Positions 6,640-54,408 of a stretch of DNA of 64,000 nt are shown piece after piece; within the stretch, counting starts at the first letter, position 1, and every line of letters starts with the position of its first letter. Made by a program: the position numbers and the translations under genes. Under the pieces are notes generated by a model. That model saw only the letters and a program-made list of their open reading frames with translations. It was not told the DNA's origin and did not search any database. This stretch comes from Thuidium tamariscinum (lineage: Eukaryota > Streptophyta > Bryopsida > Hypnales > Thuidiaceae): positions 28,660,347 through 28,724,346 of the forward strand of contig OX344753.2 in assembly GCA_947034885.2 (NCBI GenBank), read 5' to 3'.

Positions 6640-9600
6640 TCAACCAATTTTCACCCACGCGGCGTAGCCCACAATGCCATCCGCCACTGGAAACAGCATG
6701 TAGTACCCTGCGGGTGCGAGCTGTGCCGACGGCGGAGACGTGGAAAACACATTGTAATCCCCGGCGCCATTGTCTGCAGGTGCCGACGCCGCCAATTGCA
6801 ACAGCCTCTGTCCCTGAACCACAGCAAGATCAAGGTGGATGGCTTAGTTGTAGAACTGTAGTGCAGAATACGGGATGCTGAACCACTAAAGGACAAAGGA
6901 TTCGAAGTTTGACCAGGGTTAATTCTGTTGATTGTAGTGTGAAAAAGATAATTCAGATGAGGCCATATTTTCTGCCACCTCAATCAGTGAAGACCATTGC
7001 TCGTGTTGGCTCAAAAATCACGAGGTCCTGGTCCCTTACGAGTTAAGTTGCAGGGCTCTCGTGACGATTGAAGCAATGCATGCAGAGGTGTTCATGTGGA
7101 TGGGTGTGGGTGGTGTGGTGATGGCGTACCATGGCGTAAGAATGCGTGACGAATGGCGCACTGAACAGATTGAGCTCGATGGTGGTCGGTGTGGTAGCCT
7201 TCACGACGGCGGTGAACGCCTCGCCATAGCCCAGCGCGCCAGGCAACGAAGAAAATCCCGACGGGTTCGCTCCGAAGTAGGGCGGGTGGAAAACCTCCAC
7301 GCGCAGCTCTGTGGGAAGATACCCCGTGAGCGTGTAGAATTGGTGCGTGTTGGACCCTGCGAGCAGAATGCGTCCATCTTGCAACAAATTCGCTGTGGAG
7401 TGGTAGACGCGCGGAATGTCCGTCCCCGCGAGCGTGGTGAACCTTGTGCCCGCGGCGTTGTACGGCTTGTAAAGCTCCGGCGCTTGCACTGGGTTGGACG
7501 CACCCCCCCATCCCTGCGCGCCGTTCGCGGCACCGTTGATAATTAGCACGTCGCGCGTGGGCAGAAGCACCATGTCTCCCATCGTGCGCTTCTGGGGGAG
7601 AAACTCCATGGCCCAGTCTGCGGCATCGGCTAACGGGGAGATGCGGCCACAGGTTTGGGACGCATCCGCACCCACGTTGGCGCTCATGTAAGCGCCGTAC
7701 TGTGCCCCGCCGCATACCAAAACCTCAGCGTTGGCGAAGCCCGCGTCTGCGGCTAACGGGAGAAGCACGGAGCTTCCCGCAGAAGGGTAGTTCCGGGGCT
7801 CGCCGGGGATGGTGGGGAAATTCTTGGCTACGCTGTTGGTTTGCCAGTCGAAGAGGATGGAGTCGCGGTTGGCGAAGATGAAGAGCTGGTTGTTGGGGAG
7901 GAGGTGAACGAAGGGGTACAGGTTGTCCATCTGCGCGTCGTTGGTCTGTGACAGAGTATTCACAAATGTAGCTAAATTTAGTAAAGCTTCGACAAAACCT
8001 TATTGCTTGCTACAGAAAATGTGACATATCGTAGTGTGTGGGGGCAGTTTGAGCTAATTATGGCAAACACATTTGGGGACACTAAGGTAGTCTGCGAGTA
8101 TCATTTGCTCCCATGTGAGAATTCACGATCTCCGTCACAGGTTCACGGCGAAGGAATCAAACACGTTGCAAATTTTAAGGCTGCAAGTCTGCATTCTGCA
8201 ACAGCGACCCGACCGGTACACTTATTAGTGGCCGGTCTCCAGGTAAGTTACTTGTCAGGTGTCACTGACGGAACTACTGCTACACAGAATTCCAAAATTC
8301 CGTAACTCAATTCTGTAGGCACACGAGTACGTGGTTCGTGCTAAGGCAGACACTGAGTTTTCCTTTTAAATTATTTGTCCGCGTGCGCACGAATCGTGAT
8401 TACTGGCCATGGATGATTCTATGGATACCTACTGTCTATATTACGGCAGCTTGTAGGAAAGCAACTCAAATGGGTCCGAATTAAATTAACCCGACTGTCC
8501 GACGCATAGAACATCATTCCTTGGAGATTCGATGTGGATCACGACGATTCGATTCTCAACGGCATCTTTCGAGTTCACGAACTATATGTGAGAATGCATG
8601 CATGCGCTGCTTGCTTCAATGGAGTCCGGAGATGGTGAGGGTACCTTGGCCAGGAGGTCGAGGAAGACGGTGCCGCGGCCATTGGCCGGGACGTACTCGA
8701 TCGTTTGAGTGCTGCGGCCACCCACGACGATCTGCGTCCCGTCGGGAAGAATCTGGTTGCTGGCGTACCAGCGTCCATTCTGTAATTGGGTGTCTTGCTC
8801 CACCCAGTCGCATGAGCCATCGCCGCATGGATTGAACGTCCGAATCTGCACACGAATGGTTGTCATTCAATTATCACTCGCGCGCTATTGAATACATTCT
8901 TCCATCCCTAAGTCGATGTCACGAAACAAGCTACAGTATGAACATAACGACGGTGATTTATTCACATTGACGGCATGCCGTGGGATCGAAGAGATAATAA
9001 AAGATTCGGTTACCTTCATCAGCCCATCAGCGTCACCCCCTGTTTGCACGAGCTGGCCATTCGCATCAAACTGCCCAGAAGAGCACCACGTGTCCGTGAA
9101 GACGAAGAGTGGTCGAATTGAGTTGGAGTCTGGCGTGTACAAAGCTGAATGCGCGGAGCAATCATGCGGCGCCGCCTGCAGGTATCAAATCCTTGTATTC
9201 AACGAACGAACACATTTACAAACAACACACGAAACCTCCACCACAATCTACTCTACACGTACGAATCTTGGCCATAACCCACCACAGGTGCCCAGCAATT
9301 CTGCTCAAATCCGCATTGGCCCGTGCGAATTTCAAGTTTTGGATCGCTAGCAATCACGCTACTCGACTATTCCGGTATCACGATCTCGACAAATCCAAAC
9401 CGTGCATCCATTCATTGCAGAAAGCAAGTGAGGTAAGTAGGGCTGACAGAGAAGCTGAGCAATCTCGTACCCGATCCTCAGCGTTGTCCCGACAGACACC
9501 ATCCGGAAGAGCAAGCTGCGAGGGGCCGATATTGGTTCGATCCAACAGCACCACATTTCCGTAATGCGTGACCGCCGCGTGCATGGTCGAGATTCCTGCA

Positions 9601-48639: not shown

Positions 48640-49008
48640 TGAAACAGGAGATCCAATTGAATCAATTGATGTACATGATTGTTTTAGTATCAATTCTACG
48701 AGATGAAAATTTTTTAGTTCGATAGTTGAGTTATCAAGTAATTCAAAAGACAAACCAATATATGTTTGCCCTTGTTCTTCTACATCTTACTGAACAAATG
48801 CTTCTAGGTTGTTGGTTTCAGTACAATTTGGTAGTACATGTGACAGTAGTGCTAGTAGTTCAATTCTATCACGTCCTTCATTCTATCCAATTGGTCGGGA
48901 AGTTTTCTATTGTAATGCAAGGCTTGAGAAAATTAGGGTCTATTTGTGGATCCAAAAACAAGCTTGCTTCTCTTGATTTTGATTCTTTAAATTACCATAA
49001 GGTTCAAT
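48640..49008 (+). pseudogene. Decayed gene, part upstream of the Copia insertion
   Basis: Weakly protein-like sequence in shifting frames (for example FYPIGREVFYCNARLEKI) runs into the retrotransposon target site. It continues at 54409. See that entry for the more recognisable part. Confidence 0.35.
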
Positions 49009-49291
49009 TGTTGATTCAAACGACTTGTATTGAATGAGATAAGAATGTCAGGAGCATTCATTTATACATTAAGCCAGTAAGCAGTTCCTACTCACAGCAA
49101 TCTGAGTAAGTAACAGCTACCACTAACCCACTAACATTGTACAGTCTATACGTTTGTAACGTCAGTTACATAGGAGGTTAATTTGATTATGGCAATTAAT
49201 TTGACTGAGATCAGTATGACTAATTTAAGGATGACTGATTCAGTTGTGTGAATGAACGTTGCATGGGTTTCGAAGAGCGCTTAATTCAACA
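49009..49291 (-). repeat. Copia 3' LTR (283 bp)
   Basis: Partner of 54121-54403. It is preceded on the element's strand by a purine-rich GCGAGGGAGGG, the likely polypurine tract. Confidence 0.96.
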
Positions 49292-49349
49292 CCCTCCCTC
49301 GCTCAAGGAACCCTAAATTTTTTTCTCGCTTTCTTTTCCTGTGTCACAT

Positions 49350-49904
49350 ATGGCTCGATTCTTCTTGCTTCCGGCGGAGGTCGTCCACGACTTCGGGAAT
49401 TGTGTAGACCGTATGCCATTGGCAAGCTCCTCTTCAACATCTACTTGTGCTTCCTTTGATCGCTTGGTACGATCTGTGTCGCAGCGTTCTCACCCGGGTG
49501 CTTCGATGCAGGTTCAGGTCGGAATACTGATTCTGTGGTTGCTCGCCAAATTTGCCCGTCGAATTTGTGATGGGATTCTGCACGTCTGCACTTGCATCTG
49601 GTGTGCGATTCAAGGCGAGTTCAGTCGAATGAGGGCTTGTGATGTTTGCGTGCCGATCAATCTTCACCAGGATGCGATTGGAGCTTCAGCGGCGAATACT
49701 GCTGCAGTTGTCAGCAGCAACTCCGGCGAGATTACGGAGTCCTTTTGGAGGCATCTGGTGAGCAATCCTGACGAATGGTGGGACAATCGAGAAACACGGA
49801 GAAATCCAAGAGCCCCAGATTTCAAGCACAAATTATCTCGGAAGGCTCTGTGGTTAGATAATTGTCAAACCCCCGATTGGGCTAGGGCCAGATTTCAGCA
49901 GTGA
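49350..49904 (+). CDS. Antisense ORF with an OSB-type PDF motif, captured inside the Copia element
   Basis: This open frame of 184 codons lies between the end of pol and the 3' LTR and runs opposite to the retrotransposon; its last codons overlap the pol end by about 10 bp. Residues 131-181 read SFWRHLVSNPDEWWDNRETR then RNPRAPDFKHKLSRKALWLD, followed by W176. This matches the PDF motif of plant organellar single-stranded DNA-binding (OSB) proteins, with its WWDNR, PDFKHK and ALWL elements. In OSB proteins this motif of about 50 residues contributes to ssDNA binding, usually next to an OB-fold; no OB-fold is recognisable here, and residues 50-120 resemble no known domain. The first 50 residues are rich in Ser, Arg and hydrophobics and could be a former targeting peptide. 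I infer a host gene fragment picked up by the retroelement. Whether it is expressed is unknown. Confidence 0.72.
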   Translation: MARFFLLPAEVVHDFGNCVDRMPLASSSSTSTCASFDRLVRSVSQRSHPGASMQVQVGILILWLLAKFARRICDGILHVCTCIWCAIQGEFSRMRACDVCVPINLHQDAIGASAANTAAVVSSNSGEITESFWRHLVSNPDEWWDNRETRRNPRAPDFKHKLSRKALWLDNCQTPDWARARFQQ

Positions 49905-52900
49905 CGCATCGTGTAGGGTATAATACCTGCTTGTTGTCGGTTTTGGACAAAGCATTTGTGTGGCAGTGGCTTTGTTAGGAAATCTGCAAGTTGGGATTCA
50001 GTTGGCACGTAGCTGACTTGTACTGCTCCAGCCTTGGCTGCTTCACGTATAAAATGGTGTTGTATTTCGATGTGCTTTGTCCTTGCATGCATGATTGGAT
50101 TCTTCACAAGCTTGATACATGATTGATTATCACTGAGGAGATTTGTAGGCTCCTCTGCAGGTACTCCAAGCTCTTGTAGCAACCTTCTGAAATGAATGAT
50201 GTCTTTGGCAGCATCTGTTAGGACCCTATATTCAGCTTCCGTACTAGATAGTGACACTGTTGGCTGCATCTTGCTGCTCCAGTTTACAGGAGAATTTCCT
50301 AGTTTATGTAGGATTCCAGATGTTGAGCGCCTTGTATCAACGTCCCTTCCCCAATCTGCATCAGCGTAGGTGTAAAGGGTAACGTCGTCGTCTGATGTCA
50401 TGAGTATTCCATGGTTTAGTGTCCCACTCAAATATCGAAGAATTTTCTTGGCTGCTAAATAATGTGCATGTTCTGGTTCTTGCATATATTTGGTCACGCA
50501 GCTGACTGCGTAGCAGATGTCAGGTCGAGTGATGCACAGGTAAAGGAGGCTCCCCACCAGCGATCGATAGTTCTCAGGGTCTGTTTTCTCTGTACCCATA
50601 TCCTTCTGCAGAGTCTCTTTGGGGTCCATCGGCAGCTTTGCAGAGTTGCAATTCTTCAATCCGAATTTTTCAAGCAGCTTCATAATGTAGCCTCTTTGGC
50701 TGATGAATATCCCGTTTTCTTGTCTATTAATCTCCACGCCAAGATATTCGCTAGCCTCACCTAAATCAGTCATTTCAAACTCTTCCTGTAAGTCTGTCTT
50801 GAGCTTGGCGATTTCAAGTTGGTCGCTACCTGTGATCAGCAGGTCATCTACGTACAAGAGTAGGATCGATATTTTTCCATTGCGTTTGAGATAGAAGAGG
50901 TTTGGGTCGTTTTCACTCCTGACTAGTCCTCGATTTTGTAGCCATGCGCTAATGTGATCGTACCAGGCCTTTGGAGACTGCTTCAGTCCGTAGAGTGCTT
51001 TGTTAATCCTACAAACTTTTGTATTGTCCTCTGCACCAGGGAATCCATCAGGTATCTCCATCAGGATCTCTTCATCAATATTCCCATTGAGGAATGCGGT
51101 GATCACGTCCATTTGGAACAGGGGCCAGTTGTACTTGGCTGCTAGCGCTAAAATGAGACGAATGGTCGACCACCTCACCACAGGGGCAAACACATCATGG
51201 TAATCAATACCGTGTTTCTGTTGGAACCCTCTCGCAACAATCCTGGCTTTATACTTGATGATTTCCCCTTTTGAATTTCTCTTGATTTTAAAGAACCACT
51301 TTGCTGTGATTGGTTTTCTATTGCCTGGTCGATCAATAATTTCCCATGTCTTGTTTCTTAGAATTGAGCTGATCTCACTTTGGATGGCTTCCCTCCATTC
51401 TTTCCTCTGCGCAGCTGTTTGGAAGTCTAGAGGTTCTTCGAGTAGTTCTGAAAATAGCGTCCAGTAGTCCCGTAGTCTTGTCGATGGGGCTCGGTTTCGA
51501 CATGGGTATCGCCTGGCTGCAGGCCCGGCTTGGCGATCGACGGGGAGTGGTCGCCTTTGGCATGCTGGTGATGATGAAGGTTGCTCAACGTCAACTAATT
51601 CAGGTCTTGCTGTTGATCTCTCGTCAATCAGTGTGGGATTGGGGTCCTCAATTGGGGTTTCGACTTCAGGTTCTAACGATGGAGTGCTATCTATGGTCTC
51701 GTTCTGAGTGTTCTCGGTTCCAGAAGAGCTGAATATGCTGACGGGATTTTCTACTGGTTTTGCGAAGTTGTATCCCACCTTGTTCTCATCGAAGACAACG
51801 TCTCGACTGATAATTACTTTCCCTCTAGTGTAGTCAAATAAACGATAAGCCTTAGATTCACTATCGTAGCCTAGGAATAGACACACCTGTGTCTTACTAT
51901 CCAGCTTCTTTTGATGCTCCTTAGGCACATGCAGATAAGCTACACATCCGAAAATTTTCAAGTTCGATACATCTGGCTTTGTTCCCGAGTATTTGGTTTC
52001 AGGGGTCTCACCTGAGTTTGCTCTAGTCGGGCTTCTGTTGATAAGATAATTAGCATGAGAGACCGCTTCACTCTAGAGATAAGTTGGTAAGTTGCAGTCT
52101 TGCGAGATGCTGCGCGCTCGCTCCATTAAGGTACGATTTCATCTCTCTGATACTCCGTTTTGCTGTGGTGTATTCGCTTGTGTCAACTCTCGACGGATTC
52201 CGTGTCTTTGGCAGAAGTTTATAAATTCATTTGATGTGTACTCGCCTCCTTGGTCTGAGCGCAATACTTGCAGTCTGTTTCCTGTTTCAGCTTCGATTCT
52301 TTCCTTAAACATATAGAACCTTGACATAGTCTCGCTTTTGTCCTTCAAAAAATAAGTCCAGCTTTTTCGTGAATAGTCATCAGTGAACACGAGCACATAT
52401 CGGGACCCTCCCAAAGATGGTACTTGCATCGGGCCCATGAGATCGGAATGGACCCGTTCTCCAGGCTTGGTGGCTCTTGTCTCCGTCCTTCTGGGAAAGC
52501 GTTCACGGTGCTGTCGACCAGCAAGGCAGCAGGGACAGATTCTCTTTTGTGGTAAGATTTGCGGTAGCCCAATTACATTCGCTGTCTTGGAGAGGTAGGT
52601 TAATCCCGCGTAGCTCAAATGCCCCATACGTCGATGCTACAGTTTTGATATGTCACTTTCCTCCGCAGATAGGGCCATTTCTTTCTTTGTGAAACAATAT
52701 AAACCATTCGAGGGATCTCTATGTCCTGAAGCAACTAAGTGGTTGTGATCGTTTGTGATCCAACATCGTTGGCTTGTAAATACTACTTGATGGCCCATGT
52801 CTGCAATGACTCCTACAGATGCTAAGTTTTTCTTCATACTAGGCACATACTTAACATTCTTCAACTTTATTTCTCCATTTTCAGTGTGTACAGTGGCTGA

Positions 52901-54108
52901 GCTAGTTCCCTTCACAGGGTGAGATTCCCCTCCTCCGGTTTTTATCTCACTGATTTGCACACCGGAGGAGGTGGGATAGTGATCTAATTTCTGGTAGTAT
53001 ACTGCTACGTGGCCTGTTGCCCCACTGTCTAAATACCAGGGACCGTTTCCCCAATAGTAGTAGGGGTCGTATCCCTGTGCTAAGTGTGCGTCAAAAAACT
53101 CTGCTGAGTTTGCGTACTCAGTGCTCTTGCTTGACTCTTTATCAGAAAATGCATTGGGGTTGCGTGGCATCCGACAATTTCGGGCAATATGACCCGGTTT
53201 GAGACAATTAAAACATACCGGTGGTGGGCGCGGGGCTCCGTAGATGCCTGGTGGGAATCGAAACATCCCATATGGTCCTCGTCCTGGTTGACCGCATCCC
53301 CTTGAGCTCTGTGTTGAGTTGTCTCCGCATCCTCGTCCTTGTCCCTTGACCGATGCTTGTTTCTGGAAGCTCGCCGCAAGAGCTTCTTCATCACCGAGTT
53401 GTTGCGTTCGATGTTGTCGCCTGTGTGACTCGGACAATAGACTTGCGCTCAGTCTGTCAAACGTCATATTGGGGTCCAGGTGCGTAAGTGTCTGTATTGT
53501 GCTCTCGTACGATCTCGGCAGCCCGTTCATGATGATTTGATTGACATTTCGATCAGTTAATCTCTCCCCCATACTGCTTAATCGATTCTTCAACTCTCTA
53601 GCCTTCTTGATGTAGTCTTCGATGGAACTTCCCTCCGTCATTTTCAGGGTCTGAAGTTGTCCCATCAGCGTCAAGATCTGCGATTGATCTCCTGAGTGAA
53701 ACTGGTTCCTCAGGGTCCTCCATACGATGGCGGGGTCCGAATGATCTGCGATCAGATCCACAAGGTCGTCAGCGACCGATAATAAAAGTAATCGACAAGT
53801 GAGCGCCTTCCTTTTTCTAAGCTGCGCCTCGGTAAATGCTTCTCCGTCTATCGTCACCGGAAAAGCTGCAGGAATCTGCTCCGTCTCTGTAATGGCCCAC
53901 TGGCCCTCTGCTCTAAGAACTGCCCTCATCTTCAGGGCCCACACATAGTAATTGGAAAAGCCTTTTAGCTTATCTCCCTCCCTGAAGGCAGAATTTGGAT
54001 TTTCTGCCATCTTTCACTATCCTCACTCAGTCGACTCTTCTTCGACTCAGGTACTGTGCTCAGTACGCATCCTCACTCTGTTCCGATCCTATCGAGACTG
54101 TCAAGCTC

Positions 54109-54120
54109 GCTCTGATACCA
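54109..54120 (-). other. Copia primer-binding site (initiator tRNA-Met type)
   Basis: TGGTATCAGAGC immediately follows the 5' LTR on the minus strand. It is the sequence complementary to the 3' end of plant initiator tRNA-Met, used by most plant Copia elements. Confidence 0.92.
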
Positions 54121-54403
54121 TGTTGATTCAAACGACTTGTATTGAATGAGATAAGAATGTCAGGAGCATTCATTTATACATTAAGCTAGTAAGCAGTTCC
54201 TGCTCACAGCAATCTGAGTAAATAACAGCTACCACTAACCCACTAACATTGTACAGTCTATACGTTTGTAACGTCAGTTACATAGGAGGTTAATTTGATT
54301 ATGGCAATTAATTTGACTGAGATCAGTATGACTAATTTAAGGATGACTGATTCAGTTGTGTGAATGAACGTTGCATGGGTTCCGAAGAGCGCTTAATTCA
54401 ACA
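54121..54403 (-). repeat. Copia 5' LTR (283 bp)
   Basis: Begins TGTTGAATTAAGCGC and ends GAATCAACA on the element's strand (TG...CA). About 98.6% identical to the 3' LTR. Confidence 0.96.
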
Positions 54404-54408
54404 TCAAT

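Follow-up and report, generated by a model that had tools for sequence, protein, structure and literature searches.

Results

A Copia element carrying an open antisense frame

The window, the whole 64,000-nucleotide stretch of Thuidium tamariscinum DNA that was analysed, contains on its minus strand a retrotransposon with the features of the Ty1/copia superfamily (Table 1). Pfam searches found gag, rve and RVT_2 in the order gag-IN-RT, with integrase before the reverse transcriptase, between LTRs that differ at 4 of 283 positions; a PBS, a PPT and identical 5-bp flanks, the target duplication (TSD), were also found, with TGGTATCAGA following the 5' LTR and CGAGGGAGGG preceding the 3' LTR. The family comprises four copies, the three others lying elsewhere in the genome with both LTRs and being 97-99% alike over the region. 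As each of the four copies has its own TSD, they represent four independent insertions. Elsewhere in the window, a long minus-strand ORF (7043-7963) resembles a galactose/glyoxal oxidase by eye.

Opposite gag-pol, a plus-strand frame runs to a stop at 49902-49904, with 187 codons if read from a GTG at 49341, or 184 codons from an ATG at 49350. The minus-strand reading of 49350-49904 was rejected, as it contains stops. The last pol ORF ends at 49895, overlapping the antisense frame tail to tail by 10 nt, and the frame therefore sits between pol and the 3' LTR (49009-49291); both this position and the antisense orientation had been given correctly by the initial annotation of the locus.

Table 1. 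Features of the Copia element and of the predicted antisense gene (positions in the window)
Feature	Position	Strand	Basis or remark
Copia LTR retrotransposon	49009..54403	-	5,395 bp; TSD 49004-49008 / 54404-54408
3' LTR	49009..49291	-	LTR repeat of 283 bp, 99%
5' LTR	54121..54403	-	LTR repeat of 283 bp
gag ORF	52637..54010	-	ORF list and Pfam
Integrase core ORF	52139..52627	-	ORF list and Pfam
pol ORF with RT and presumed RNase H region	49895..51961	-	3' end overlaps the antisense stop
Predicted exon 1, 24 codons (MARFFLLPAEVVHDFGNCVDRMPL)	49350..49421	+	Strict splice script and alignment
Predicted intron, 90 nt, GC-AG in the window family	49422..49511	+	Strict splice script and alignment
Predicted exon 2 with stop: hydrophobic helix, linker, PDF motif (130 aa)	49512..49904	+	
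Transmembrane-like hydrophobic helix	49512..49577	+	Kyte-Doolittle and model
PDF motif of OSB type (63-aa query)	49713..49901	+	WWDNR..PDFKHK..ALWL

Predicted splicing of the antisense gene

The antisense frame is predicted to be a spliced gene of two exons. A strict splice script, which required an ATG, a donor, an acceptor and a spliced frame open up to the motif, was applied to all 28 Copia loci in the pol tree, among them near-copies. A 72-nt exon 1 ending in a donor was identified in 14 of the 28, and the strict model fails in the other 14; most loci gave several acceptors, from which the homologous one was chosen. The predicted introns of the 14 modelled loci span 76-104 nt and are not a multiple of three in 10, and an unspliced intron would break the frame in 10 of the 14. 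When the 28 loci were aligned and read by eye, the donor was GT in 22 and GC in four (the window family), the acceptor AG was present in 23 and the ATG in 24; the upstream part of the gene was not recognisable in two loci (L042 and L045). The non-standard GC donor (GCAAGC, 49422-49427 in the window) occurs in 4/4 window-family copies; the remaining families with the intron have GT. It is because the window intron is open and 90 nt long that the initial annotation saw one frame: the "uninterrupted" 184 codons are indeed open throughout, but they read through the predicted intron.

Across seven cross-family pairs, intron identity was 0.44-0.57 with gaps and exon 1 identity 0.43-0.67 without gaps, the gap-free result being partly by construction, as fixed 72-nt slices were compared; exon 1 was no more alike than the intron in two of the seven. 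In the window, 58 nt separate the antisense ATG from the edge of the LTR; in 12 loci where the edge was called by pattern (that of L048 being unsure), the distance is 31-91 nt. This proximity suggests the 3' LTR, or sequence adjoining it, as the most likely place for antisense transcription to begin.

Presence of the motif throughout one Copia lineage

The 63-aa motif of the window was searched in a single genome of 363 Mb, where it matched 126 places; pol adjoins the motif in 27 of the 30 best motif-match loci. The corresponding pol query was a 136-aa piece from what we take, on the basis of its motifs, to be the RNase H region, with 150 of 157 matches listed and 150 of 471 candidates scored. 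In each of the best 32 of at least 157 pol matches (61% identity or above), the motif lies on the other strand, 49-160 bp past the 3' end of pol. Among the matches listed, those ranked 33-150 have it in 3 of 118 cases; one of these three has the motif 1,574 bp away, and one, weak and containing stops, was found only via the query from the single-copy locus L044 described below. Motif and pol also lie on opposite strands in four more Copia remnants (L039, L078, L097 and L098). Across 20 representatives, motif and pol distances covary (Mantel r 0.784, a value reached by 0 of 10,000 permutations), as expected for joint descent, mean distances being 0.425 (motif) and 0.359 (pol piece).

Codon-level constraint between families

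Selection was assessed by NG86 and Fisher tests on cross-family pairs, which share loci and hence are not independent. Nonsynonymous changes per site were fewer than synonymous changes in 8/8 pairs (Fisher p 3.7e-8 to 9.1e-20), with dN of 0.31-0.57; synonymous sites were saturated in six pairs, and dS was 2.2-2.3 in two. Among closer pairs, p fell below 0.05 in 3 of 10 (one Copia pair, L030/L034, and two pairs from the transposon-like repeat described below, L046/L075 and L046/L077), and in one of the six within Copia, with w of 0.31-0.85 where defined. Two closer pairs had no synonymous changes against five and four nonsynonymous ones, and a synonymous excess was absent from L021/L022, L027/L028 and L046/L047. 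Constraint was looked for in the window's four-copy family alone and none was seen: the gene is open in two of the four copies, L023 having a stop and L024 a frame shift, and the two open copies differ by one synonymous and three nonsynonymous changes. The initial annotation had proposed that function would be supported by the same frame persisting in independent insertions with dN below dS, which is borne out between families, but not within this one.

Two further comparisons extend to the other reading frames and to codon positions. Exon 2 of 13 Copia loci contains five stops in the coding frame, compared with 50 and 131 for the two remaining frames of that strand and 34, 43 and 86 for those of the sense strand, the low coding-frame count being partly built in because these loci were chosen by the open-frame script. 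In the motif alignment, which involved no open-frame selection, 16 of 28 Copia loci lack a stop and 12 of 28 contain one. Differences at the three codon positions of nine representatives were 0.427, 0.395 and 0.635, and those within the PDF part were 0.266, 0.236 and 0.557, an excess at the third position. By the cross-family pairs, codon-level constraint on the antisense gene is strong between families.

Predicted product and its relation to OSB proteins

The predicted spliced product, approximately 154 aa long, opens with 24 residues ahead of a hydrophobic helix, from which a variable linker leads to the PDF motif. The best 19-residue Kyte-Doolittle mean was 1.58-2.39 across 19 spliced products, and 1.71 in the window. 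An AlphaFold model based on 12 exon 2 sequences had a mean pLDDT of 71, with a helix at residues 2-42, blocks of 76-91 in the PDF part and 33-39 in the linker; 12 of the 13 invariant columns in the 12 exon 2 rows fall inside the motif. A fold search of the PDB with the exon 2 model returned no match at E 0.001 or better (best E 5.1). Hydropathy and the predicted model, of mean pLDDT 71 and without a PDB fold match, suggest a membrane anchor. Pfam placed no family over its cut-off on the window frame (US10, at E 0.19, falls below it) or on the L044 product; a PDB sequence search with the latter gave nothing significant (best E 0.26), and PHROGs gave no match for the exon 2 products of the window or L044.

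The frame ends, as annotated, in a PDF motif of OSB type. Residues 23-62 of its 63 match an exon at C1:35467345-35467464 (E 2.4e-4, 38%), within a region (C1:35467345-35468977) in which two exons over the Pfam cut-off for PF00436, the SSB fold, precede the PDF motif, and which we read as one host OSB gene; the annotated relationship to OSB proteins is supported. The product shares the C-terminal PDF motif with OSB proteins, but differs from them in having a hydrophobic helix, and in that an OB-fold or SSB-like domain (PF00436) was not found in the frame or the L044 product. The host gene's motif is split between exons after WWDNR, whereas that of the element is continuous, without the splitting intron, and the element gene is therefore no fragment of the OSB gene as it now stands. 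The PDF part of the element probably shares an ancestor with host OSB proteins, perhaps through a spliced copy. The PDF motif of AtOSB1 is described as sufficient for ssDNA binding (PMC6963530), making such a role, which the initial annotation had raised, possible for the element's product.

Other matches to the motif have different structures. Around 60 places, counted from the match list, match only about residues 29-61 and represent an OSB-like gene piece amplified about 60-fold, with a 73-aa frame in many. In the six of these places that were examined (L071, L072, L073, L074, L079 and L080), the halves of the motif are likewise apart, the upstream half being weak in L074.

The same layout outside the Copia lineage

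A transposon-like repeat family, found at 13 places (including L046, L047, L075-L077, L084 and L085), also carries a two-exon gene encoding a helix and a PDF motif. All five members examined have a 93-nt exon 1 and the motif, and four have the homologous acceptor. Similarity between distant copies of the repeat is largely limited to the PDF gene and an ORF on the opposite strand, with one more short piece alike in a single copy. Beyond the PDF gene, a same-strand ORF has a SWIM-like Cys/His pattern and MULE-like motifs; the repeat also has a convergent ULP1-like ORF. As Pfam has no family over its cut-offs for the ORFs around the 13-copy repeat, these are by-eye labels taken from motifs.

The layout recurs in L044 (C9:5756927-5760094), a single-copy, open locus with a 69-nt exon 1 and an 80-nt intron. 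A tblastn search detected no pol within 1.5 kb, and a DNA search with its 3.2 kb gave no second match in the genome. Its best matches are one repeat member and one Copia member, both at 42%, so that it could be either a host source or a domesticated element copy. In a PDF tree of 60 columns, too few to settle the clade, placing the Copia rows as one clade gave a p-AU of 0.378, and in the free tree L049 stands beside the repeat (support 91/73).

A pattern search of genome contigs returned 30 matches, with 0 relatives among them. A PsaD piece of the genome matched 9vfj best (344 bits, a chain of 698 residues matched three times), followed by 7ksq (187.5 bits), 8htu (186.4), 6l35 (185.1), 9lut (179.8) and 8wgh (170.1), with all others at 166.5 bits or below; 7ksq and 6l35 are photosystem I structures of the moss Physcomitrium, which makes a moss the likely host. 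In seven IMG/VR viral contigs (L088-L094), judged by eye to be phage-like, a small encoded protein has a PDF-type motif close to its end (L088 512-1096, L089 2632-3219 and L090 2464-3111, and likewise in L091-L094), that of L088 being WWDNRNSKRNPKAPDYKHK; the proteins adjoin ORFs labelled by eye as nuclease-like and DnaB-like helicase. A tblastn search of 50,697 phage records with the L088 protein and its motif found no relatives. The viral frames suggest that the PDF-type motif may occur beyond plants.

Discussion

A probable accessory gene on the antisense strand

Lineage-wide presence, a conserved exon-intron layout and between-family codon constraint are all evident in the sequences, and the antisense frame between pol and the 3' LTR is probably a long-standing accessory gene in a single Copia lineage. 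If so, the protein would most likely act in trans on the replication of the Copia element. Firstly, the PDF motif would bind single-stranded cDNA or other nucleic-acid intermediates. Secondly, the hydrophobic helix would hold the protein at a membrane. Were the gene accepted, the chances that it works by such membrane-held binding of single-stranded intermediates would be evenly balanced. Because splicing of the sense genomic RNA cannot remove an antisense intron, the intron should stay in the genomic RNA and survive retrotransposition.

An alternative is that the antisense protein or transcript restrains the element, and is kept because such copy-number control limits damage to the host. There are precedents, as Ty1 antisense RNAs are described as mediating trans-silencing, and antisense transcripts of LTR elements as able to feed dsRNA silencing (PMC12786077, PMC7264820). 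However, control by RNA only would leave the codon-level constraint, the 72-nt exon 1 and the variable-length intron unexplained. A protein inhibitor might fit, but we regard copy-number control overall as unlikely.

Somewhat less likely again is that a host gene with helix and PDF motif, such as L044, directly supplied the Copia lineage as well as the repeat, the function being the host's and the elements mere carriers. The open frame, matching layout and single occurrence of L044 fit such a source, but its equal similarity to a repeat member and a Copia member would fit a domesticated copy just as well, and the 60 columns of the PDF tree cannot decide the direction. That constraint extends over many Copia families favours a use to the element over a host function.

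There is little to recommend the view that conservation acts on the sense strand, through an RNA packaging signal, 3' UTR or sense ORF, with the antisense frame as a by-product. The region lies in the 3' part of the genomic RNA, and stops are fewer in two of the three exon 2 sense frames (34 and 43) than in either antisense off frame (50 and 131); yet this would not account for the third-position excess in the antisense frame, the antisense splice signals or the cross-family dN below dS. The initial annotation proposed a captured fragment. That this copy recently acquired a piece of a host OSB gene, which has since decayed neutrally, is scarcely credible despite the broken copies (two of four) and unseen constraint of the window family, since the motif is not unique to this copy but present in 32/32 of the best of at least 157 pol relatives, with covarying divergence, the relatives also share the exon 1, intron and hydrophobic helix upstream of it, and the host OSB motif is distant and intron-split.

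An accessory gene of the Copia lineage therefore remains our preferred reading. More tentatively, and with appreciable doubt, a spliced gene for a membrane-anchored ssDNA-binding protein could be an accessory module shared by the Copia lineage, the 13-copy MULE-like transposon and a single host locus; among antisense retrotransposon genes, it might then be the first to which a nucleic-acid-binding activity could be assigned, and it would have persisted through retrotransposition because the intron runs antisense. The function of plant antisense extra genes has been little understood, partly because their proteins resembled little that was known. As the present protein ends in a motif whose activity was tested in OSB1, the role of an antisense extra gene becomes open to direct assay. 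That an antisense intron of variable length is conserved strongly suggests, at the genomic level, that genes of this type are made into protein. Accessory genes may also pass from one kind of element to another, as the recurrence of the layout in a second, transposon-like repeat suggests.

Comparison with known systems

HBZ, the antisense gene of HTLV, is spliced, and its protein is not known to be related to the one predicted here. Its promoter lies in the 3' LTR (PMC7264820), a likeness to the location inferred for the present gene. Transduction of host genes by LTR elements, of the Bs1 type (PMC7264820), similarly places host-like sequence inside an LTR element, but the present gene differs in being found in a whole close lineage, in antisense orientation, with an intron and with constraint between families. 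In the titles and abstract openings of open-licence literature, no Copia antisense gene with a PDF motif was found, which is weak evidence, and six terms for antisense or extra ORFs are absent from PMC6317226. Extra ORFs are reported from most LTR-element lineages, in a passage that does not give their orientation (PMC12786077). A review of extra ORFs names Grande, RIRE2, Retand and PvRetro13 as elements with antisense ones; its account of these aORFs describes similar gene sequences as lacking outside elements, their role as not known, and their proteins as without clear similarities apart from SMC and transposase-28 domains (PMC7264820).

The closest parallel is with the antisense aORF-3R described from Gypsy elements of plants, to which Grande and RIRE2 belong; the antisense ORF of Grande is reportedly transcribed from its own promoter. 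The aORF-3R comprise Grande gene23, RIRE2, Retand ORF4 (TRP28) and pvRetro13 ORF2 (PMC7264820, PMC11963269, PMC4093653), Retand being Gypsy (PMC11963269) and pvRetro13 Ty3-gypsy (PMC4093653). The present frame likewise lies antisense between pol and the 3' LTR, occurs in most family copies, and is conserved similarly to the element's own proteins. It nevertheless appears to differ from known aORFs in three respects. Firstly, it belongs to another superfamily, Copia, where it occupies a region of approximately 600 bp. Secondly, it is predicted to be spliced from two exons around a conserved intron. Thirdly, its motif is common to a host DNA-binding family, and has a known biochemistry.
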